Shown here one piece after another: positions 3,527 to 58,558 of a DNA stretch of 64,000 bases (within the stretch, counting starts at the first letter, position 1; each line of letters begins with the position of its first letter). Under the pieces are notes generated by a model. It searched no databases, was not told the origin of the DNA, and saw only the letters and a list, made by a program, of their open reading frames with translations. Location of the stretch: NCBI GenBank assembly GCA_900095095.1, contig FMBT01000373.1, positions 1 to 64,000 on the forward strand, read 5' to 3'. The DNA comes from Fragilariopsis cylindrus CCMP1102 (Eukaryota; Bacillariophyta; Bacillariophyceae; Bacillariales; Bacillariaceae). The translations under genes and the position numbers were made by a program.

Positions 3527-4312
3527 ATGATGTCATCGTCGTCTCTCATCTCCTCTTCATCGTATCTACCCACGCATTATCAACATCAACATCCCCGTCA
3601 ACGCCAAAACCAAAACCAAAATGATAACAATGCAACTGCAACATCGATGACATCATCATCAACGGCAACAATATCAACGTTAAAGCTAACGTCAACGCCA
3701 ACGGAACAACAACAACAACAACAAATATTTAACAAGCCACCCTATTTTAAAAGTAGTTATTATACATTCTTAGTTGCAACATTCCTTGCCTATAGTATTG
3801 GTGTTGGATATTATGTCTCCACCCGACCACGTGGAAAATGGCGATCACCCTTTTCCTACCATCCATTTTTAATGACAGTGGGGATGATTGGGATGATGGG
3901 AATTGGTGCCATTACAAAAAAACTGGGTGGATATACCAATACAAAAATGCATGGGATGATTGCCTCAACTGGATACTTTGTAGCCTGTGGTGGATTGTAT
4001 GCCATTTATCAGAATAAAAATTTAATGGAACGGAATCATTTTACCTCCACACATGGAAAAATTGGTATCGTCGTGATGGTCTCATTCCTTGGTCCATTAC
4101 TGGCAGGTGGTGTGGTCTTACATCCTGATTTTGGTGTCGATAAAACAAATAAACTGATTCGTACAGTTCATAAACTGTTTTCCAGATTATTAATGTGTGT
4201 GGCATGGGGAAATTCAATCTATGGATTGTATGGGATTCGGTCGGAACATCCAATGGAGCTATTTATGTATGGTGTACCATTATTAATGTTAATGCCAATA
4301 ACGTTAATGTAA
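3527..4312 (+). CDS. Cytochrome b561-type transmembrane protein
   Basis: Intronless, 261 residues. The first 80 or so residues are Ser/Gln/Asn-rich. About five or six membrane segments follow. The b561 pattern of paired histidines is present: FSYHPFLMTVGMIG, KMHGMIAS, TSTHGKIGIV and RTVHKLFSR can supply the four axial ligands of two haems. The family carries electrons across membranes, usually from ascorbate to ferric iron or monodehydroascorbate. The compartment cannot be decided, because the low-complexity N-terminus is not a clear signal peptide. The start is the first of two adjacent ATGs. The gene ends about 400 bp from the convergent TMEM144-like gene. Confidence 0.75.
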   Translation: MMSSSSLISSSSYLPTHYQHQHPRQRQNQNQNDNNATATSMTSSSTATISTLKLTSTPTEQQQQQQIFNKPPYFKSSYYTFLVATFLAYSIGVGYYVSTRPRGKWRSPFSYHPFLMTVGMIGMMGIGAITKKLGGYTNTKMHGMIASTGYFVACGGLYAIYQNKNLMERNHFTSTHGKIGIVVMVSFLGPLLAGGVVLHPDFGVDKTNKLIRTVHKLFSRLLMCVAWGNSIYGLYGIRSEHPMELFMYGVPLLMLMPITLM

Positions 4313-45784: not shown

Positions 45785-48688
45785 ATGTCAGACAGAGCCT
45801 ATTCGTCAACTCCAGAGAAGCGACATCCTCATAATCCGTATGCCCAAAGAGCACATTCGTCAACACCAAAGAAGCGACCTCTTTCACAATGCAGTTCCCA
45901 GCACAGCTTTTCTAATCCGCAATCATTTGATTTCGCTAGCAGCGGTGGTACTACAAATAGTAGTATTAACACCAAAGTGCAACACGAATCCCCTTCTTCA
46001 AAGCGTCAATCACCTGGAATTGGAAACAACGACGAATTCATTTATTGTAGTGGCGGCAACAGCAACAGCAACAGCAAAAACAAAAACAGCATTAACAAGG
46101 AATATTATCAAAATAATCACAATGGTAATGATACTATGTGTACTGACGATGACGATGATGATGATGATGACGAACAACAACTATCGCAGATTCTAGAAAT
46201 GGCACCCGAATTTGATGGTATAACAAAAGGCATAGAGCAACTATCACTGAATGAGGAGGTCGTCGAAGAAATAGGAGATGAGCTCCAGGAGAAAGCAATC
46301 GGACTCGCTGCGGAAGGAAATAATATATTCCTAACAGGAAAAGCGGGGACGGGAAAAAGTTGGACAACAAGAAAGATAGTTGCTGCGTGTCGTAGTAGAA
46401 AAAAGATTCACATCACAGCTCCTACTGGAATTGCTGCTATCAATGTAAATGGGAGGACTATACATTCCTGGGGAGGGTTTGGATTGGGTGAATATATGCA
46501 AGACTTTGATAGAATGATGGGCCCAGAAACTATGAAAAAGATACGAGATACTGACACATTACTAATCGACGAAATATCCATGATCGATGGTCACTTCTTT
46601 GATGTCCTTGAATGCATGATTTCGATCATTCGTTGCTATGATATGGTTGATGAAAGAATTAAGGAAATAAAGGAAATCGGGAATAAAATTAGTGAAAACG
46701 CGGGTGGGACGCCAAACTCCATAATTAGTCCATACATGCTGGAAATGCGTAGGACGTGGGGTGATATAGAACCTTGGGGTGGTATGCAATTGATCGTTGT
46801 TGGTGATTTCTTTCAACTGCCACCAATACCAAGAAATGGAAGAGTACTTCTAGAGAACGACGAACTATCGGAAACGGAAAACAATCTCAAAATTGGACGG
46901 CAGGGTTGTTATGCCTTTGAGAGTCATACATGGCATCGAAGCGACCTGCAAATAGTTGAACTTCAAAAGGTACATAGACAAGCCGAAAATGATGGACTGT
47001 TCGAGCTACTTAACGCTATGCGGGCGGGGGAAGCAAATCTAACATACAATCACCAGGCTGCCTTGAGTGCTCTTCGGGCACCGATACAGGAACGAAACGA
47101 TGGGATCGTCCCAACAGAATTACATTCAATGAATCGCAATGTTGACAAGGTCAACAGAAGCCAACTAGAAAGATTACCTGGAGATTCGCATACGCTTAAC
47201 TCACTCGACGAAGTTGTGTTTGACTCCAAATACAAAAGTAAACTACTGAAGAAGTATAAGTTAGAACTTGTCAGCCATATGCCGTATTTGTTTGCTTCTG
47301 TTGAGGAACCACCACCACCACCTTCTTTACTACGCGAAACCTGTGATAAGCTGGCTTCGCTCGAAGAAAAGAGAAAAATACTCATCGCAAAGGAAGACTA
47401 CGAGACTTTGATTACCATGAAACCGGTAATAAAAGGTCTGAAAGAAAAAATAGAGACTCTTGAAAGAGAAGAAAAGGAAAAATCTGATATAAGTTTTACA
47501 TCGATTAAGAAATTTCTTGACGGATCTTTTGGTGACACTAAGAATGAAGATCCCTCAACGATATTCCAAAATTATCAAGCTTTCGTAGCTCAACTGAAAG
47601 TCGATTTCGAAGCTCTAAACGAGCATGCAGGTAAAAGATTTTTCCAGAAGGATTGTCGAGTCAACGAAACAATAATGTTAAAAGAAAACGCTCAAGTAAT
47701 GCTACTGTGGAATTTGGATGTACCCGGACAGCTTGCAAACGGAAGTAGAGGGATTTTGAAAGGATTTGTACCAATAGCATCCTATCGACGTCTAATCGAT
47801 CGAGAAATAAAGAAACGACAGAATGATGAAGAAAATAGAACAAATAATGAATCCGTTAAACAAACCGGACCTGTTGTTTCTGGGAAGTGTCAATGTCATA
47901 TTGAACCGGGCATAGTTTCGTGTAAATGCACTGCCGCAAACGATCCGACCAAATGTGTTCACGAAAAATCTGAAGACGTAAAGAAAGATAAAGAAGAAAC
48001 TGAGGCAGTTGACGACTATACTTATTCCATTGATTCAGAGATCCTACAGGAAATTAAATCGAATATAGGATGTATGTCGGATTTAAATGATGAACTTCGT
48101 ATCATTGATAAAATTTCAATGTCAGAAATGATGACTGCCTTGCCTTATGTTCAGTTCACAAATGGGAGAAAACGATTGATTCGTCCACAACCGTTCAAGA
48201 AGGAATTTAAAGGATGTGGACATGCTTCTCGTTGGCAAATTCCTTTGACCTTGGCGTGGGCTATATCTATCCATAAATCACAGGGTATGACAATCGACTT
48301 GCTTCATGTGAATCTCAATGGATGCTTTGCTCCTGGTCAAGCATACGTTGCCTGTAGTCGAGGACGTAGTTTGAAATCAATGACGGTAGTAAATTTCAAT
48401 CCCAATGAAATCAAAACGAGCGAGAAGGTTCAAAAATTCTACAAACTGTTGAATACTGATGCACCCTATTCTCAGACGTGGTCGGATACAATTGCTGAAT
48501 TCGATAAATCTCAAAAAGATAAACACCAACTGAAGAAACGTATGAAGCAGCGATACAAGGATGACAAGTGTCCAAATTGTTTCGCACGTTGCAGTGTAAA
48601 TCAAGCGAAAAAAGACGGGAGATGGTTCATCGTGTGCTCAGTTGTCTACGGACACTTTTTTCAATGGGTTCCAGTAACACCACATTAG
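45785..48688 (+). CDS. PIF1-family DNA helicase with GRF-type zinc finger
   Basis: 967 residues, one exon, intact. A low-complexity N-terminus precedes the helicase core. Walker A is FLTGKAGTGKSWTTRKIV, motif Ia ITAPTGIAAINVNGRTIHSW, and Walker B LLIDEISMIDGHFFDVLE. Motif III is QLIVVGDFFQLPP, and the late motifs are LTLAWAISIHKSQGMTIDL and YVACSRGRSLKSM. This is the PIF1 branch of 5'-3' helicases, which unwind DNA at telomeres, G-quadruplexes and stalled forks. Odd features are a Cys-rich insert (KCQCHIEPGIVSCKCTAAND) between the two parts of domain 2 and a C-terminal CPNCFARCSVNQ...GRWFIVCS...FFQWV that fits a GRF-like zinc finger. It lies just outside the left end of the transposon candidate. 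A transposon origin (as in Helitrons) is not supported, because no Rep domain is present. Confidence 0.85.
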   Translation: MSDRAYSSTPEKRHPHNPYAQRAHSSTPKKRPLSQCSSQHSFSNPQSFDFASSGGTTNSSINTKVQHESPSSKRQSPGIGNNDEFIYCSGGNSNSNSKNKNSINKEYYQNNHNGNDTMCTDDDDDDDDDEQQLSQILEMAPEFDGITKGIEQLSLNEEVVEEIGDELQEKAIGLAAEGNNIFLTGKAGTGKSWTTRKIVAACRSRKKIHITAPTGIAAINVNGRTIHSWGGFGLGEYMQDFDRMMGPETMKKIRDTDTLLIDEISMIDGHFFDVLECMISIIRCYDMVDERIKEIKEIGNKISENAGGTPNSIISPYMLEMRRTWGDIEPWGGMQLIVVGDFFQLPPIPRNGRVLLENDELSETENNLKIGRQGCYAFESHTWHRSDLQIVELQKVHRQAENDGLFELLNAMRAGEANLTYNHQAALSALRAPIQERNDGIVPTELHSMNRNVDKVNRSQLERLPGDSHTLNSLDEVVFDSKYKSKLLKKYKLELVSHMPYLFASVEEPPPPPSLLRETCDKLASLEEKRKILIAKEDYETLITMKPVIKGLKEKIETLEREEKEKSDISFTSIKKFLDGSFGDTKNEDPSTIFQNYQAFVAQLKVDFEALNEHAGKRFFQKDCRVNETIMLKENAQVMLLWNLDVPGQLANGSRGILKGFVPIASYRRLIDREIKKRQNDEENRTNNESVKQTGPVVSGKCQCHIEPGIVSCKCTAANDPTKCVHEKSEDVKKDKEETEAVDDYTYSIDSEILQEIKSNIGCMSDLNDELRIIDKISMSEMMTALPYVQFTNGRKRLIRPQPFKKEFKGCGHASRWQIPLTLAWAISIHKSQGMTIDLLHVNLNGCFAPGQAYVACSRGRSLKSMTVVNFNPNEIKTSEKVQKFYKLLNTDAPYSQTWSDTIAEFDKSQKDKHQLKKRMKQRYKDDKCPNCFARCSVNQAKKDGRWFIVCSVVYGHFFQWVPVTPH

Positions 48689-49027: not shown

Positions 49028-49114
49028 TATATCCATGGTGATTTTTGAAACTCAAATATGAGTTTTATCCACGTTTCAAAAAAATGAAACTCAGATCTGA
49101 GTTTCATTTTTTTT
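49028..49114 (+). repeat. Left inverted terminal block of the transposon candidate
   Basis: Outer block at 49028-49046, then a palindrome GAAACTCAAATATGAGTTT-like at 49047-49066, then the palindrome GAAACTCAGATCTGAGTTTC at 49086-49105, flanked by A and T runs. Confidence 0.6.
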
Positions 49115-49279
49115 CTTCACAACGCAGATTTTTTAAATCTCGATGTCATGACAACGAATACCCGAACACGACAAACAACATGAAATACACCTAATAGACG
49201 TATCATAGCATAAGGAATACATAAATCAGTCATTTATTTAACTTATTTTCTTCTAATATTGATTATGACAATGATAGTC

Positions 49280-49720
49280 TTATTCTAATAAGTTAGGACT
49301 ACGGAGAGACATTATATTCATCTTCTGGGAGAGGTGATAGTCCTCCTCGTACTCATTGTCAATGTCAACCTGGACGGTAGGCAAATCGGTAGCTTCGTCT
49401 TCTCCTTCTCCATCATCAGTAGTATCATCATCATCATCATCAGTGTCATCGTCAGCATTAGGAGGAACTCGACGTTGTGGAAGAGGACTGGTGATATCTT
49501 CTTCTTCTTTAATGGTAGGAGTACCCTTGACTTGGACATACTTCTTGATCGCATCATTGATCATTTTTTTCATGCATTGAGCAAGCAACAAATCAACAAT
49601 AGGATCGTCACCATCAACGTCGGCAGCAGCAGCACCACCACCACCACCACCATCTTCATTGGATGGTTCGATACTGACAGTAATACTGCCAGTTACTTTA
49701 ACAGAAAAGGATGTCTTCAT
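49280..49720 (-). CDS. Small acidic hypothetical protein inside the transposon candidate
   Basis: 146 residues; no family recognised. It starts MKTSFSVKVTGSITVSIEPS, an amphipathic beta-like stretch, then a Gly/Ala run, a possible helix (VDLLLAQCMKKMINDAIKKY) and a long acidic region, ending SLRSPNLLE. The ATG is preceded by a (GTT)n leader that is mirrored upstream of the divergent ORF at 50148. It may be an accessory protein of the element. The acidic part is encoded by repeats, so chance is a partial alternative. Confidence 0.45.
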   Translation of the reverse strand: MKTSFSVKVTGSITVSIEPSNEDGGGGGGAAAADVDGDDPIVDLLLAQCMKKMINDAIKKYVQVKGTPTIKEEEDITSPLPQRRVPPNADDDTDDDDDDTTDDGEGEDEATDLPTVQVDIDNEYEEDYHLSQKMNIMSLRSPNLLE

Positions 49721-49721
49721 T

Positions 49722-50128
49722 GTTGTTGTTGTTGTTGCTTTTGTTTATTTTGATTTATAATTTATGAAGAAAACAATAGTAATAATAATAATAATAATAA
49801 TAATACAACAAGTTGAGTCGAGTCGAGTTGGGTGGAGTTGTGTTGTTTCTTAAGAGAGAACCAACTGACGAATCCACAAACAACAACAATACAAGCACGA
49901 CGTATTAATAATAATAGTACAACGAGTTGAGTTGCCAACTTTCTTAAGAGAGGACCAACAGACGAATTCTCCACGAAGAATAAATAATAATAATACATTA
50001 ATACACAAACAACCGCAACAATAGTACAAGCACGACGACGGATTAATATTATTATTGTTACTATTGTTATCTTCATAAATTATAAATAGAAAATAGACAA
50101 AGCAACAACAGCAACAACAAATTAAAAC
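49722..50128. promoter_or_regulatory. Mirrored bidirectional promoter/leader
   Basis: The region between the two divergent small ORFs has inverted-repeat arms (49753-49789 and 50051-50087, about 35 of 37 matching) that extend loosely to both start codons through GTT/AAC repeats. Between the arms lie two direct copies, about 110-130 bp each, of a segment containing TTCTTAAGAGAG and TACAAGCACGACG (49803-49912 and 49916-50050). Confidence 0.6.
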
Positions 50129-50147
50129 AAACACCATCACCATCACC

Positions 50148-50510
50148 ATGGCCGACAATCTTATTATTCCGTGTCCGATTTGGGAAAGATCTAGTCAGCC
50201 TGGTAAAGGATTTAGAGGTCGTATAGCAATTGATTCCTTGAAGAGGCTCCTAGTTTATGATGATATTAGGTGGCCATCAGCTCCCTTCCCGGAATTAATC
50301 ATTCCACTTGTTGGTGTTGGTGTCGACATCAAATTCAAACCAGTCAATAGCAGAAACAACAATCACAAGATGGGGAGGATGACTGTTACAACATCTTCTA
50401 CAGCTACTGCTACTGTATTCCCTTCTATTATTCATGCCGGTGAGGTATTCACTTTCATTATCTCATTAGAAGACAGTAACAAAATCATCGGTTCAATGGA
50501 ATCAAAATGA
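50148..50510 (+). CDS. Small hypothetical protein inside the transposon candidate
   Basis: 120 residues; no family recognised. It begins MADNLIIPCPIWERSSQPGK and continues with alternating hydrophobic stretches (FPELIIPLVGVGVDIKFKPV, GEVFTFIISLEDSNKIIGSM) that suggest a small beta-rich fold. It is normal-looking and not built of repeats. It runs divergently from the 146-residue ORF and convergently with the transposase gene. An accessory role in the element is only inferred from position. Confidence 0.5.
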   Translation: MADNLIIPCPIWERSSQPGKGFRGRIAIDSLKRLLVYDDIRWPSAPFPELIIPLVGVGVDIKFKPVNSRNNNHKMGRMTVTTSSTATATVFPSIIHAGEVFTFIISLEDSNKIIGSMESK

Positions 50511-50584
50511 ATGATCATATTATATATGGAATCGAATCATAAATCTAGTCCGTATGATGGAAGCAAAAAGAAGGATCGAATCGT

Positions 50585-50773
50585 CAATCTAATACTAGTA
50601 TAACCAAGATAACATCTATAATATAAATATAAATACTATTACTATTATTATTATTTATTTACATACTACAAATACAAATACAAATACAAATAGCAGTAGT
50701 AATACAAATACAATCGTAACATACTATACGTTGTTTATTCTTCTAATAGTATACGTACGTTGTTTCATCGGAC
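50585..50773 (-). repeat. Partial duplicate of the transposase gene 3' end
   Basis: Matches 51279-51427: both run from AATCTAATACTAGTATAA through TTTATTTACATACTACA and ATAGCAGTAGTAATACAAAT to TTATTCTTCTA...ATCGGACT. The second copy covers the last codons and 3' flank of the transposase; this copy is degenerate. It is in the same orientation as the gene. Confidence 0.65.
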
Positions 50774-50837
50774 TTGACCAAAGGTTTTCGTCACGAATAC
50801 GAATACGAATACGAATACGAATATTAAGATCAGATCA

Positions 50838-51119
50838 GATCAGATTCTTGACCAAAGGTTTTTGTCAAAGAACATTGACATAATAATTCTTGACAAACAA
50901 TTTCCGGCAAAGATAATTTACATAATGATTCTTGACCAAAGTATTTCGGCAAAGAACATTCACATAATTATTTTTTACCAAAGGTTTTCGGTAAAGAACA
51001 TTTGCATAATAATTCTGGACCAATAATTTTCGGCAAAGAAAATTTACATAACCATTTCGGGCCAATGGTTTTGGGCAAGGAACATTACATAATCATTCTT
51101 GACCAATAAAAATCAAATC
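50838..51119. repeat. 33-bp satellite array, copy A
   Basis: About eight imperfect units of roughly 33 bp built on ATTCTTGACCAA...TTTCGGCAAAGAACATT.ACATAAT. The whole array is about 99% identical to copy B at 54751-55032 (two differences noted), and flanking GAATC and GTACT pentamer repeats are shared. The open frame inside is a by-product of a period divisible by three. Confidence 0.85.
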
Positions 51120-51404
51120 AAATCAAATCAAATCGAATCGGATCGGAACGAATCGTACCGTAAACTGTACTGTACTGTACTGTACTGTACCGAATCGAAT
51201 CGAATCAGAGCTAATCGTATCATAAATCTAATACTAGTATAAAAACAAAACGTACTGAATCGAATCGAATCAAATCATAAATCTAATACTAGTATAATAA
51301 CAAAGATGAAGTTTATAATATAAATACTATTATTATTATTTATTTACATACTACAGATACAAATAGCAGTAGTAATACAAATACAAATACAAATACAAAT
51401 ACAT

Positions 51405-54400
51405 TTATTCTTCTACTGCCATCGGACTCACTAGTGCCGGGGTAGAATGTGATCCATCAAGGATGTTAACTCTTCTTGAAATTGATTGCCGGTGATGTAT
51501 ATGAAAGCATCCATTTTCAACAGTACAAAACTCTTTTGTACTTCCATCAGCAGCTACACCATTCATAACTAATTCACTAGGCGGTCGTTCCCCACCCAAG
51601 AATGCAACTCTAGAATCGTTAGCTAAGATCATATTATTTATCTTTTCATCTTGGTTCTTACAACAATACCATCTTTTGCATATAACACATACAAAGTTAG
51701 ATTGAACACCACAAATACAGCACTTATTTCTTTTGGTATAATATAGAACACCATTACAATTCTTCAGACGATCTTGATCTGCTTCCCATTCAGCTGTCTT
51801 GTTCTTGGGATCTTTGGCTCGTCCTTTGCCAGGAGTACCACCAGTGACAGTAGTATAGTTCCTAATCTCTTGGAAAGAGCTTCTGTTTCTCCGCTGTACT
51901 TGAGTAGGTGTTTGAAGAAGAGGACCGTTGCTTCCAGTAGTATCGATAGTTAGTGCTGTGGTAGGAGGAGTAGGAGGTACAGCAGCCGCAGCAGCAGCCA
52001 CTGCATCATCTGCATTCTTGATGAACCAAACAGAAAGCCTATCAACTGTCTTGTGGAATGGATAGTTTTTATTTCTTGTATTACGGAAATGATGAAGAGA
52101 TGCATAGAAGTTCAAGTCGGGCTTGGCTGTAGCAATTTGATATTCTCTGTGTAATAGAATAGAATAGAGCTGTAAGAATTTAGCAAAAGCAACCACTTGA
52201 GACCGACCACTAGAAGCAAACTTGATCTGACAGTTCCACATCAGCTTTGTGGCTGTATCTGAAGCGCCTTTCAAGTTATTCCAAACTGAATGATTGTAAG
52301 GAAGAATTCGATTGCAAGGAGGAATTGGTAGTTGTAACACTTTCTTTATTCGTAACTGCCTCCAAATATAGAAGTCAGTTTGAAAGGAATGATAGGTCAT
52401 ATTAAGTTTCTTCATTTCCTTTGCTTGTAAAATCTTCTCAATCTTCACTTGTGGTAGTTGAATATCGTCTTCATAGAAGGGCTTCAGAGCTCGATCAAAA
52501 AGATCTTTCAACAGAGCCCGGTAGGAAGCAATAAGATTATCACTGTAGTTAACGAAAACACCAAACATGATTTTCGTTTTGTTACCAACAAGGAAGAGGC
52601 CCTTCCTTACGTCTCGAACTGCAACATGATGGAGCAGCTGAAAACTCTCCTTGTGCTTTGGGATCCACTTGTGAAGCTCTCCTCCCTCTGCATCAATTTC
52701 AACATAGTAAGGTTTTCCACTCTCATAGGCAGCTAATCCAAAATTAGCTTCAATCAGTTGTCTTTCAGAATAGAAAGTGCTATGAGCAACGCGAGCTTTA
52801 ATTTCAATTGGCATAGTTTCAATAGCAATATCATCATCATCATCGGTATCACTACCACTATCATTAGCAGCATGATCTTCTTTCTTGTAGATAAGTTCAG
52901 CATCTGATGAATCCAGTGCACCCGTAATTGATGTCGATTCAACTGAATATATATAAATAGATAGATAGATAAAAGTGAGACAATATATAGTCGATTACGA
53001 AACATTAGCAACTAAATCAGTCCGGAAATTGACTGGTCCAGACAAGGAAGGACTAAATCTGATCGAAATTAGGACTAAATCTGTGCGAAAATAATTGAAT
53101 CGGATCAATCAAATCGGATCAATCAAGTCGGATCAATCAAGTTGGATCAATCAAATCAAATCAAATCAAATCAAATCAGAACGAAGCAAAGCAAAGCAAA
53201 CAAACAAACAACACAACGTACCAACTGGTGTTTCATGAATAGCAACCGACTTGTAACCTTGTGTAAGTCCTTCCTTACTGTGCTGGTGGAACTGTTCCAA
53301 GAATGGACGCTCTAGAAGGTGTCCTTGTCTACAATATGCCTTGGCTTCGTCCTTTAATGGTTTCATTTTCGATGCTTTAAATATGTCTAGTAGCACAGGA
53401 TCCACAGTATCATCATCATTACCATCATCATCATCATCATCGTATGGATCTTGATTATTATTTAAAGTTGTATTGCGACCGATTCTTTTCCTTTCACACC
53501 GCACAACAAGATCATATAAAGCATTCTTGTTCTTTCCTGTTACTACTGCTTGTCCATCTAATTCTAATATACGCACCTTGAGTTGTGGAGCATTATAAAA
53601 GAAGTACTTTCTGTGGAGATAGGAAGACAACGCAGACCATGCTATGAGTTTTTTCTTCAAAGATGGTATAGAACCGGTTGATTTTCCATTATCATGCTTA
53701 TCAATGATCCCTCTAATAACAGCTTCATCCATATTATCAGAGTTGAGTCTATCTCTGAATAGACCATCTTCACCATCATTAACACGTCGGATCCAATTTG
53801 CTGGCCAATCCACACCAGGTGGTGGTGGTTCAGCGTCATCATCGTCCGCATCAAGAATATCAGAGATTGTAGTCCTTGCTCTTGCTTGACGGTTTGTAGT
53901 AGTAGTATTATTATTATTATTCCTTGCATCAGCGTAATCAGAGCTCCTTGGTAATAGATTCATTCTATCGACAGCATTTAAAACAGTCTCATATGATTCC
54001 CGGAGAGCATGGTCTTCTGTTATTTCTCTAGATCTTGAAGAAATACATTTATCAACAGTAGATGATGTTAATGAAAACTGTCTCATAATAAACCATACAG
54101 TATCTCCTTGTACAAGCGTCAAAGGTTGGATTGGCAGTGATTTAATAATGTCATGATGATCTGATGAACCAGCCACGACAGGGAATGCTTTTGCATTCCT
54201 TTCATCTTGTAATACAGTTCGATTGAAATACCACTTGTGATCCTTGGGGAAAGCTAGATTCAAATCAAATAGAGGACCATGATGAATTGTTGACATTGCA
54301 AGTGAAACAGCAGTTCCAGTACCAGTACGATAGCAAGTTGCTCGGATCTTAGCAGTACCCCATTTCAATGTCTTGTAGAATACGTCTTTAGCTCCTTTCA

Positions 54401-55988
54401 TCCTAATTTCAATTCTATTGTGTGTGTCAACTTCTGGTATTGCTGTCACCTTCCCTTTTGTGAATGTAAAGGGATACCAGAAGCATCTAGCTACAGTACC
54501 AACCACATCGGCTCCACATTTTAGAAGGAATAGAAATAGAAGAGTTGGTGTCCAGTATCCTCGATCGGAACCAAAAGTTATTCCTATATTTTGTTAGATT
54601 AAAAAAAGAAATTGTAATGTAAGTTGAAATATATATATATATATATATATATGAATACAAATACAAATACGAATACAAATACAAATACGAGAATACAAAT
54701 ACGATACGGATGCGGATGCGGATACAGATACGGATACGAATACGAGATCCGATCAGATTCTTGACCAACGGTTTTTGTCAAAGAACATTGACATAATAAT
54801 TCTTGACAAACAATTTCCGGCAAAGATAATTTACATAATGATTCTTGACCAAAGTATTTCGGCAAAGAACATTCACATAATTATTTTTTACCAAAGGTTT
54901 TCGGTAAAGAACATTTGCATAATAATTCTGGACCAATAATTTTCGGCAAAGAAAATTTACATAACCATTTCGGGCCAATGGTTTTTGGCAAGGAACATTA
55001 CATAATCATTCTTGACCAATAAAAATCAAATCGAATCGAATCGTACTGTACTGTACTGTACTGTACCGAATACGAATACGAATACGGATACGGATACGAA
55101 TATAAACATACCTTGTAGATTAGGATCACCATTACCAGTACGTCCACCAAACATTCTCTTACACATCCTTTCATACACTTGTGATTGTGTTTCCTCTTCT
55201 CTTTGAAACATAACACAGAGAGGAAATCCTGTTGCACTTAAACCTGCAGTATGTGCTATATGGCCCATTCTATTAGTCTTAATGTGCCGGGCTCTCAATA
55301 AACCATATGTATCAGCGTGTTTAGAATAATTGAAACGGTGCTTGTCATCATCTAATGCAACATAAAGTTCTTCTTCACCTCTTTCTGATAAAAAGTGCTT
55401 CTTGGCAAGTGAATTAAATAATTCTTCTATCTGCATCCACAATGATTCATCACCACTCCTGTGTTCCTCTATCTGCCTGATGAGTCTATAATATTCCCCA
55501 CTTTCCATCATACCAGTGGAATCAAATCGATTGTCTTCTAGAAGTCGTGAGGCAGGTGAACTTCTACTTGATGCAGCAAAGAAAGTAGCAAGAAATCTGC
55601 AGTATTTTTCATATGATAATGACAATTCTTCCATAAGCAAATGGCAGAGCCTGCTTTTAGGTCCAAATATTCTAGTAGCAAGTGTATCAAATGAAGGATG
55701 ATCTTCTCCCCATACAGTACGGAGGATTCCGATTTCTGTCCTTCCTTGTTTCCATATATGAATACGGCCCTTCTCCATTGTTACTACTGTATTAGAAATA
55801 ATATCTGGTGCATCATCTTTCCAATCAGCTGCACAAGGAAATTCACCACCATCTGTAGTTGTCTCTTCTGCTTGTCCCTCTGAAACCCAATTGTCATTAA
55901 TATCATCCTGATGTTGAGTCTGTGCTTGAAGAAAGTCAAAGTCCACATCAACATCAGCAAGGAATGTTGGATTGCACGAATCATCCAT
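51405..55988 (-). CDS. PiggyBac-like DDE transposase with SAP-like and PDDEXK-like segments, three exons
   Basis: Exons 55988-55112, 54583-53222 and 52942-51405 join in frame (GTATGT...ATAG, GTACGT...TCAG) to about 1,258 residues, twice the usual piggyBac length. Candidate catalytic Asp sites: VALDDDKHRF (about 213), GITFGSDRGYWTPTLLF (about 299, followed by ADVVGTVAR as in piggyBac) and WNNLKGASDTATKLMW (about 975). STIHHG near 390 also fits. An SAP-like segment lies near 625-660 (LKVRILELDGQ...GKNKNALYDL). Between 715 and 850, GHLLERPFLE, ALDSSD, PIEIKAR and FQLLHHVAVRDVRKGLFLVG fit the E...D...ExK...Q order of YqaJ-like PDDEXK nucleases. The C-terminus has a Cys/His cluster (CCICGVQSNFVCVICKRWYC). 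No breaks were seen, so it may be active. Superfamily is tentative. Confidence 0.65.
54751..55032. repeat. 33-bp satellite array, copy B, inside transposase intron 1
   Basis: Same array and orientation as 50838-51119, offset 3,913 bp. It lies within the 528-bp first intron of the transposase gene, next to TACGAA/TACAAA hexamer runs and a (TA)n tract. Confidence 0.85.
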
Positions 55989-56070
55989 TGTTGTCGTCGT
56001 TTATTGTTTTTCTTTCTTCGGCGTCGTCGTTATTGTTATTGCTATTGTTGCTTTTGCAGCTGCTGCCGCC

Positions 56071-56106
<36 letters not shown>

Positions 56107-56543
56107 ACGGATGAGCTGTTGCTGTGGATCGTTATGGTATCATTGCCATCGTCGTCGTCGGTGATAGAGATGATCTGATAAGAAAGAAGGAGGGAGGGAG
56201 GGAGAGGTGCAAATCAAACATACCGGTCCATCATTATTCTCCATTTCAATTGAATTGAGCGCCATTTCACTTCCCATTAGCATCGGCATGACTTCAAATA
56301 TTGTTGAATAGACCTGGAAAGAGGGATTATGTGCCATTGTCAAGGAAGTAATTTTCTTTTTGTCCGTCCTGGATGGAATTTTTGAGTGACGACGACGACG
56401 ACACATGAAAAAAATCACATAATAATGAAAATTTTCGTGTGCTACCCCCTTTAAATTGATCTCTAGTACTGAAATCCCTGTAGAAACCTACGAGAGAAAA
56501 GGCTAATTCTTCAATTTGAGACAAAAAAAGAATCGGTTGAATC

Positions 56544-56621
56544 AAAAAAAATGAAACTCAGATATGAGTTTCATTTAGTCAAATGAGTCGAGCGCGACGA
56601 AAAAAAATCATTATGGATATA
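56544..56621 (-). repeat. Right inverted terminal block of the transposon candidate
   Basis: Contains the palindrome GAAACTCAGATATGAGTTTC (56553-56572) after an A8 run, then an AGTCGAGCGCGACGA spacer and the outer block AAAAATCATTATGGATATA (56603-56621), inverted relative to the left end. Confidence 0.6.
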
Positions 56622-56764: not shown

Positions 56765-58558
56765 TTGACAATGCAACGAACGAAAGTCTATACTACTAGT
56801 GTCCTCGTAGGATTACTATGTTCATCATGGTTTCATCTACGGCTGTGGGATGATGCAAATTTTGTCGGCGTTGTTGAGAGCCTGGAAATAGTCAAAATGT
56901 CGCGACAACGACACCGACGAATACAAACAACGAAATTGTCTTTGGCAGTGCCATCAACAATAATGAAACCAATAAGAAGGATGCAATCATGTTCCCGGAC
57001 TACAACAATAATGTCCCTATCATCGTCTGAGCGTTGTCACGACGACCACGACGGTATTTTCGATGGTAATATCCCGCTCATTTCTACAAAAAAGACGGGA
57101 GGAAAAAGAACAAGAAGAAGTCGAGGATTTCTCACTCGACAATACGGCCAGAAAAATGACGATATTATGGATGACTCTGATGGTACTAGCAATGAAACCG
57201 GTAACGACGACAGCGACAGCGACATCAGCGGTGAAAGCAGGGACGACGACGATAGAATAAATACGGTACAAGCCAATGCGACAATAACGACGACGAATGA
57301 TAATCAAAAGCATCAGCGTCATCATCATCAGCATCATCCCATTTCAGACTTCTTGTATGGAGCCAAGTACGTCCATTCTCAGTACCTATCTATATTATGG
57401 AAGTATTCCTTTGTTTGGAGTTTTGCTGTAACAATACCCATCGGGATTGCTTTATTGTTTATCGGAGGTACAAATACCGTTCTTTACGATTGTTTATTTC
57501 GTGGATTGAGTTCCGTCCTTTCAGTATCGTCTGCAACAGCAAGACTACTTCAATTGCCATTAGAAATTGTACAAAAAATTGCTCTTAATATCTGGATTTT
57601 TCTACCTGAAGTGTTGACACCAGTTATTAATACCTTTCCAAACGTTGTGGCTGTTCCACTCGTTCAAATTTTGTTATCGATTCGTGACGCAACGACCACG
57701 GTTATAACGATCGGTCGTGGTAACAATATCATTGCCTTCATCTCATCGATGGTAGCGATCCTCGTTTGGAGACCAGCTGTTGAAGAATTGCAATATCGAT
57801 CTATTCTTGATAAGTTGTTATTCGCTGCGCCTTGTTGGCTGCTGAATAGTGTAACAAGGAAAAAGAGATTTACTGCAACTGACAATGATGATAGCGAAAT
57901 CGTCGTCGAGAACAACAAAAACGACAACGACAATAATTTACAGTCGTTCTTAGCGTCACCCGCCTCTTCAGTATCGATGGTAGAATTCATTCCAACGTCG
58001 TCGAATGATTTCACGATCACAGGCAACAATAACAATTTATCGTCTGTTGACGTTGACGGAACGATGGATGATAACGAAGTCTATAATCCACTACTTCCTA
58101 GCAAATCGACTCGAATCCTACTTGGAAGCCTACTATTCGCTACCACAAGGTTAGGATGGTTATCATCAGATCCTGCCGACTCGATTGCACTTTCGTCTTC
58201 GCCCTACGGTTTCACTATTGGGTTTATCCAGTCCATATTAGGACATTTTTCTAGTCAGGGTTTGTCGGATATTCGACCCGGTCTTCGTATTTTAATACTG
58301 CTATTAGCGATTCATCAGACCGTTAGCACGTTTTTCGTAGCACAGAATGTATTTGCAGGTATTTATAGCCGACGAGGCTTGTATGCATCTATTGGGGCGC
58401 ATGTTTCGTGGACGGTCGGTAAGGGGACAATTTTCTTTCGATTATTATGGAGATTATGGAAGCGGCTCACTACTATGGGTAGTGGAAGAAATAATAGTCC
58501 ATCATTAGGGGATGATAGTAGTCTATCCACGGCTCGATCAGACGGAGTAACAAAGTGA
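56765..58558 (+). CDS. CPBP/CAAX-type intramembrane protease-like protein
   Basis: 597 residues, one exon, intact. The hydrophobic N-terminus (TTSVLVGLLCSSWFHLRLW) may be a signal or transit sequence. A long acidic, His-rich linker follows, then five or six membrane segments. RPAVEELQYRSILDKLLF carries the EExxxR motif of the CPBP family, and GAHVSWTVGKG near the end can supply a later His. The middle FxxxH motif is not evident (LFATTRLGWLSS stands at that place), so activity is uncertain. A low-complexity insert (57890-58090) separates the first motif from the rest. Relatives process prenylated proteins or serve as membrane proteins in plastids. It starts about 140 bp beyond the transposon right end. 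Confidence 0.65.
   Translation: MTMQRTKVYTTSVLVGLLCSSWFHLRLWDDANFVGVVESLEIVKMSRQRHRRIQTTKLSLAVPSTIMKPIRRMQSCSRTTTIMSLSSSERCHDDHDGIFDGNIPLISTKKTGGKRTRRSRGFLTRQYGQKNDDIMDDSDGTSNETGNDDSDSDISGESRDDDDRINTVQANATITTTNDNQKHQRHHHQHHPISDFLYGAKYVHSQYLSILWKYSFVWSFAVTIPIGIALLFIGGTNTVLYDCLFRGLSSVLSVSSATARLLQLPLEIVQKIALNIWIFLPEVLTPVINTFPNVVAVPLVQILLSIRDATTTVITIGRGNNIIAFISSMVAILVWRPAVEELQYRSILDKLLFAAPCWLLNSVTRKKRFTATDNDDSEIVVENNKNDNDNNLQSFLASPASSVSMVEFIPTSSNDFTITGNNNNLSSVDVDGTMDDNEVYNPLLPSKSTRILLGSLLFATTRLGWLSSDPADSIALSSSPYGFTIGFIQSILGHFSSQGLSDIRPGLRILILLLAIHQTVSTFFVAQNVFAGIYSRRGLYASIGAHVSWTVGKGTIFFRLLWRLWKRLTTMGSGRNNSPSLGDDSSLSTARSDGVTK

Follow-up and report, generated by a model that had tools for sequence, protein, structure and literature searches.

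The current analysis concerns a transposable element in the diatom Fragilariopsis cylindrus CCMP1102, located within a stretch of 64,000 nucleotides (hereafter the window; positions 1 to 64,000 of contig FMBT01000373.1, assembly GCA_900095095.1). Positions 49033-56616 of the window are confirmed as a DNA transposon of 7,584 bp bordered by ATAT on each side, and we consider it probable that this 7.6-kb segment is an autonomous-type cut-and-paste element with a protein of 1,258 amino acids (aa) as its presumed transposase. More tentatively, the element may represent a new superfamily with its own choice of ATAT as target, in which the domain that grips the DNA and the palindromes at both ends would be exchanged as a matched set among elements that otherwise recombine, leaving several mutually blind transposition systems within one genome.

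The case for a transposon begins with its ends. A preliminary description of the segment had reported two separate blocks inverted at its termini, and both are evident, as the outer pair agrees at 17/19 positions within the bounds given there, while the inner pair (49082-49114 with 56544-56576) spans 33 nt at 97% complementarity. Since each inner block is itself a palindrome, the inner blocks match in either orientation. Both ends recur in other copies. A search of the genome (67.9 Mb in 818 contigs; copies are named here by contig label, C742 being the window copy) matched the left end to C640 and to four places on C72 at 97–98% identity over 86–87 bases, with weaker matches on C63 (95%, 61 bases) and C108 (86%, 57 bases). 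The right end was matched at 99% by C343 and, again, four places on C72, and at 76–91% by C375, C674, C572, C180, C341 and C439. Element alignments stop at the identical bases 49029 and 56620 in the copies, beyond which the flanks are unrelated; the inverted ends originally proposed were sound, whereas the outermost coordinates assigned to them (49028 and 56621) were not the common termini. A 16-base tip pattern with no more than one mismatch yielded 93 genome matches versus 6 for a reversed control, and the recurrence of the end blocks exceeds chance. Among these matches are miniature inverted-repeat transposable elements (MITEs) that share the ends of the full element and measure 218–225 bp with the two ATAT copies included. 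Terminal inverted repeats are consequently common to independent insertions.

Across the whole element, other copies are 77–87% identical to the window copy, the lowest value belonging to C640, whose far part is unrelated and whose homology to the element ends at about window position 53623. With this truncated copy excluded, the copies are 83–87% alike. The unbroken coding exons had been taken to suggest recent activity, which was not borne out, because near-identical copies were found only as a tandem array on C72 that includes 2.8 kb of host flank; an empty allele of the window site was likewise absent from the matches found. The array itself (C72:167615-209190, L025-L029) comprises four 10.4-kb units, each made up of one copy of the element and 2.78 kb of flanking sequence. 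Its element copies are 99.9–100% and its inner spacers 99.8–99.9% identical with gaps uncounted, or 99.4–99.6% in long alignments with gaps, and it arose by recent segmental amplification of a copy already inserted. Small indels distinguish the units and break reading frames in some, although these may be assembly errors. Separately, C63 (L032, about 3990-4200) carries a left-end piece of ~60 bp with an altered tip, flanked by the 16-bp direct repeat TCATTATTTTTAGATT; this end fragment was inserted in some other way.

The second line of evidence is the target site. ATAT flanks both ends at all ten sites where both could be read, namely the window, C72, C375 and C240 as well as the MITEs at C253, C354, C367, C648, C674 and C341, and the single ends at C640, C80, C108 and C343 bear it also. 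The searches were not blind in this respect: the genome pattern fixed the inner AT and allowed one mismatch, and the script pattern included ATAT with two mismatches allowed. The count leaves out C439 (an ACAT tip, other end not found) and the C63 fragment with its other tips. Scoring of 40 of 420 candidate empty sites provided six filled/empty comparisons from four insertion sites, and at three of the four a paralogous empty site shows a single ATAT in place of the two at the filled site. The alignments of C367 with C234 and of C253 with both C360 and C679 are gapless over 121–122 columns and contain exactly one ATAT, while aligning C367 with C307 leaves a single ATAT plus two one-base gaps, of which one adjoins the ATAT. 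C648 compared with C401 is also consistent with a single ATAT, its phase being ambiguous because the site sits in ATATAT. Hence, a target duplication of fixed length is found at C367, C253 and, in ambiguous phase, C648. The fourth site speaks against this regularity, as no clean ATAT is seen between C240 and C293, where the site is enlarged by five bases and a gap of 7 bp lies close by; the element-free match to the C240 flanks (C293:42917-43140, L059) is perhaps an excision footprint. For C354, C674, C341 and C375, no empty site was listed among the 40 scored candidates. C72 and the C648 MITE are each inserted into a copy of one many-copy repeat, in opposite orientations, and C401 was the only locus fetched from that repeat. 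Overall, three observations uphold the transposon and its termini as initially proposed: insertions at unrelated sites end on identical bases, MITEs carry these ends, and empty sites indicate that ATAT is duplicated upon insertion. The genome search and empty-site alignment suggested at that time returned shared ends and a duplicated ATAT, rather than solitary end blocks or alignments lacking common termini.

The segment had also been credited with a long gene and two small open reading frames (ORFs), and this arrangement was recovered. The long gene lies on the minus strand and has three exons separated by two GT-AG introns; its splicing is predicted from sequence alone, and it is intact in the window copy. 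Both small ORFs are also found in other copies. The long gene is under purifying selection, with ratios of nonsynonymous to synonymous substitution rates (dN/dS) of 0.11–0.29 among four copies per exon (C72 being represented by unit a for exon 1 and by unit b for the other two exons). By eye, D213-D215, D299 and D975, the last within a YN...KGASD motif, are candidates for a catalytic triad, and the C-terminal region, with C-x2-C-x7-C-x2-C-x4-C and C-x5-C-x-H-x2-H, resembles a zinc domain. The earlier wording "transposase-like" was too strong, in that it draws on genomic context, selection and these motifs and finds no backing from sequence searches of libraries or the PDB. Two results count against the assignment: the long protein has nothing credible in Pfam (no match up to E 10), NCBIfam, PHROGs or PDB sequences, for which reason its role is presumed, and a structure prediction for part of it, translated straight through intron 1, was worthless (predicted local distance difference test, pLDDT, of 29.8). 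Several matches were set aside as weak, including the Asp-rich stretch against a PDB chain of "Restriction of telomere capping protein 1" (E 0.011), the C80 Cys-rich domain against zf-rbx1 (E 0.025), a PepSY match (E 0.08) and the Cys-rich domain against ZNHIT1 (E 0.089, with the proteasome protein PRE6 close behind). No relatives were confirmed in viral contigs or prokaryote genomes, in what was a weak test with two short peptides per scan.

Another key feature of the element is the presence of palindromes just inside its tips. With the outer ATAT numbered from 1, the left end of the window copy has palindromes at 20–37 and, the larger, at 50–85, while the right end has one at 45–72. The arms of the core 24-mer vary among copies, yet they stay complementary. 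In 11 distinct blocks, 107/110 arm cells are paired, compared to 85.5 expected from shuffles, and with five broken blocks added the figures are 143/160 and 121.7. In neither case was the observed value reached in 10,000 shuffles, a result to be read as a guide rather than a probability, since the shuffles ignore relatedness and most of the 11 blocks were chosen for being palindromes. The arms define three types: A in the window copy, C72 and C640 (together with the C343 right end), B in C80, and C in C240 and C375, with like arms among the palindromes of one element. This scheme is weakened by the first left block of C240 and C375, which is too imperfect to count as a palindrome, and by the palindromes of the MITEs, which are hybrid and partly broken. 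Apart from these hybrid palindromes, the MITEs are in no way unusual for transposons with terminal inverted repeats, and they share tips and target site with the larger element.

Two described groups invite comparison. Sola2-type elements create AWWT target duplications, ATAT among them (PMC3627910), and Sola elements are described as having a DDD transposase, 4-bp duplications and sizes of mostly 2–9 kb (PMC10741241), which the present element resembles in both its target duplication and its size. It could conceivably be a divergent member of the Sola superfamily (Sola2), in which case the match between palindromes and protein reported below would be a Sola property. We hold this in considerable doubt, since a likeness of target site and size is weak evidence. 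The comparison was one of described features, and Sola2 fits by target site only.

The tips of piggyBac elements begin with CC, as do the CCAT tips found here, and the duplicated target is likewise a four-base, AT-only palindrome. In piggyBac, palindromes occur at unequal distances from the tips and the two C-terminal Cys-rich domains of a transposase dimer bind one subterminal palindrome, as described in PMC11707139; unequally placed subterminal palindromes and a C-terminal Cys-rich domain are features of the present element as well. Furthermore, VGTVxR and YN...KGxSD look like piggyBac motifs by eye. A true but very divergent piggyBac that changed its target from TTAA to ATAT would account for these parallels, and we find this explanation similarly doubtful. 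The target duplication of piggyBac is TTAA (PMC5199201), and its protein of 578–594 aa is about half the size of the present one, in which ~676 aa separate the second candidate Asp from the third; the two extra ORFs are a further difference. Sequence similarity is also undetectable. Four local alignments of the candidate core and third motif to piggyBac and piggyBat pieces did not exceed shuffled sequences (251 to 1569 of 2000 scored as well), and all four were outscored by one of two mismatched controls; PF13843 was found at 53 places in the genome at E <= 0.001, with zero in copies of this transposon. The element was thus not assigned to piggyBac, given its ATAT target and the absent sequence match, and the piggyBac-like layout is not evidence of common descent, because the alignments are at shuffle level, PF13843 misses the copies and the target is ATAT.

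The main new result is the relationship between the palindromes and the Cys-rich domain. A protein search (37 of 42 candidates scored) identified six copies with the third exon, counting the four C72 units as one, and all six (window, C72, C640, C80, C240 and C375) have a left end. Over their 15 pairs, left-palindrome identity and Cys-rich domain identity correlate with a rho of 0.94, a value reached by only one of 720 label permutations, the true one. Corresponding values elsewhere are −0.25 for ORF3, −0.11 for ORF2, −0.50 for the end of exon 2, and 0.37 (104/720 permutations) and −0.48 for other parts of exon 3. When five copies were scanned along the whole element in 47 segments of 300 bp (C640 excluded; one of 48 segments dropped for missing data), the maximum of 1.00 fell at 51530-51829, three overlapping or adjoining segments within 51380-52129 gave 0.65–0.89, and the other 43 ranged from −0.63 to 0.35. 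A six-copy scan in 200-bp segments (three of 44 dropped for the same reason) gave 0.85–0.98 for five segments at 51430-52029 and no more than 0.41 for the other 36. The domain DNA (aa 1130-1225) is 98–100% identical among type A copies and 85% between C240 and C375, both of which are 72–76% identical to type A, while C80 is 84% identical to type A and 73% to type C. Right palindromes, available for four copies, agree with the left ones (C742 and C72 100%, C240 and C375 94%, across these pairs 71–76%). Among these six copies, palindrome type tracks the Cys-rich domain and its flank, and not other segments of this mosaic element.

This match might simply reflect ancestry, if the copies descended from three lineages that happen to be best visible in these two segments. 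Only six copies are available, three of them type A, and noisy segments could mask the same tree elsewhere. However, the two small ORFs situated between the left palindromes and the domain, ORF2 and ORF3, group the copies otherwise (C742, C640 and C375 together at 90–96%), and in exon 1 C72 pairs with C375 at 98%. The domain is also nearly devoid of silent changes within type A: there are no amino-acid differences in aa 1130-1225, and aa 1130-1190 show no replacement and at most 1/32 silent differences, compared to 13–33% silent differences in aa 748-1090. Between types A and B, replacement-site differences amount to 20% in aa 1130-1190 and 1% in aa 1191-1225. We therefore regard shared ancestry as an unlikely source of the match.

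The reading that we prefer is that the Cys-rich region is a dimeric zinc domain matched to its palindromes, by analogy with piggyBac. Recognition of the palindromes by this domain is the most likely mechanism, given the piggyBac-like layout and the fact that domain and palindromes have been kept matched despite recombination. Several observations detract from it. Firstly, low silent divergence within type A extends to aa 1226-1258 and, for C72 and C640, to aa 1091-1129, the shared block thus reaching a little beyond the fingers. Secondly, the correlation peak is not limited to the fingers either, as the flank at aa about 1018-1118 gives 0.65. Thirdly, frameshifts interrupt the domain in C240 and C375, whose type had to be read piecewise. 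Lastly, the match rests on six copies and three types, one of them represented by a single copy, and more copies may exist. As for the arms themselves, a mutational process such as hairpin-templated copying, rather than reading by a dimer, would also keep them paired through many changes. This seems improbable to us, since it leaves unexplained both the agreement of arm type with one protein domain and the likeness of arms among the palindromes of a given element. That the long gene is not the transposase, and that the enzyme of another element moves this one, would be compatible with its lack of a recognized transposase domain, yet is highly improbable for the sole large gene of the element, which is under purifying selection between copies and has a domain that tracks the end sequences.

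Table 1. Coordinates of the transposon and its features within the window.
Feature	Position	Strand	Basis or remark
Transposon proper	49033..56616	.	7,584 bp, ATAT copies excluded; same termini in independent copies and MITEs
ATAT target duplication, left copy	49029..49032	.	single ATAT in empty sites of other insertions
ATAT target duplication, right copy	56617..56620	.	shared alignment ends and empty sites elsewhere
Left terminal inverted repeat CCATGGTGATTTTT	49033..49046	+	sequence, shared termini
Right terminal inverted repeat CCATAATGATTTTT (minus-strand reading)	56603..56616	-	sequence, shared termini
Left palindrome P1, arms 7, loop 4, type A arms	49048..49065	.	palindrome search
Left palindrome P2, perfect, 36 bp, core 49084-49107	49078..49113	.	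palindrome search
Right palindrome, core 56551-56574	56549..56576	.	palindrome search
ORF3, accessory, 146 aa, acidic	49280..49720	-	relatives at seven other sites among fetched loci
ORF2, accessory, 120 aa	50148..50510	+	71–94% identical in 5 other copies; dN/dS 0.17–0.57
42-bp-unit array, copy a	50793..51092	.	95% identical to copy b at 54706-55005
Presumed transposase exon 3, stop included	51405..52942	-	open spliced frame; dN/dS 0.11–0.21, 4 copies
Cys-rich C-terminal domain, aa 1130-1225, co-varies with palindromes	51507..51794	-	identity correlation, segment scan
Candidate third catalytic Asp, D975, YNHSVWNNLKGASD	52257..52259	-	by-eye motif; invariant in 4 rows
Intron 2, 279 nt, GT-AG	52943..53221	-	sequence
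Presumed transposase exon 2	53222..54583	-	open spliced frame; dN/dS 0.17–0.28, 4 copies
Candidate second catalytic Asp, D299, GSDRGYW	54564..54566	-	by-eye motif; same in 4 rows covering position
Intron 1, 528 nt, GT-AG, holds 42-bp minisatellite array	54584..55111	-	sequence
Presumed transposase exon 1, ATG at 55988	55112..55988	-	open spliced frame; dN/dS 0.18–0.29, 4 copies
Candidate first catalytic Asp, D213-D215, LDDDK	55344..55352	-	by-eye motif; invariant in 5 aligned rows

The remaining contents of the element (Table 1) include ORF2 and ORF3, neither of which gave a credible match to a known domain. The predicted structure of ORF2 is all beta, with a pLDDT of 49.4 and no Foldseek match at E <= 0.001, and nothing is claimed from it; the two ORFs may nonetheless have some role in the element. 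Relatives of both are present on C47 (L042) and C90 (L043), where no transposase match is listed, and these loci have either lost the interior of the element by deletion or carry the small ORFs independently. The element also holds two ~300-bp arrays of a 42-bp unit, one in intron 1 and the other beyond the 3' end of the gene. Among four copies compared, the arrays are 95–97% alike within a copy and 87–93% between copies, and are thus under concerted evolution; the C240 copy has no intron array. Outside the element, a PIF1-like helicase gene within 45785-48688 ends 340 bp from its left side, and an ORF with no Pfam match within 56771-58558 starts about 150 bp from its right side.

Based upon these features, a mechanism can be proposed. 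A dimer of the presumed transposase would hold on to the subterminal palindromes with the zinc domains of its Cys-rich C-terminal region and bring both element ends together, after which the enzyme would cut beside the CCAT tips. Insertion would then take place at ATAT with duplication of this tetranucleotide, comparable to the behavior of piggyBac at TTAA. The family would hold at least three specificity types in this genome, the palindrome arms and Cys-rich domain changing jointly while the remainder is reshuffled between copies, and the MITEs, having kept only the ends, are presumably mobilized in trans.

In the open-licence literature, we found nothing on this transposon family or on a matched exchange of domain and palindromes. 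How a transposase and its ends could change jointly without passing through a dead intermediate is hard to study when close relatives share one specificity. Here, similar copies carry three matched sets on a mosaic background, so swapping a single domain or palindrome would be a direct test. Furthermore, an ATAT target combined with a protein foreign to the searched libraries would extend the catalogue of eukaryotic transposons.

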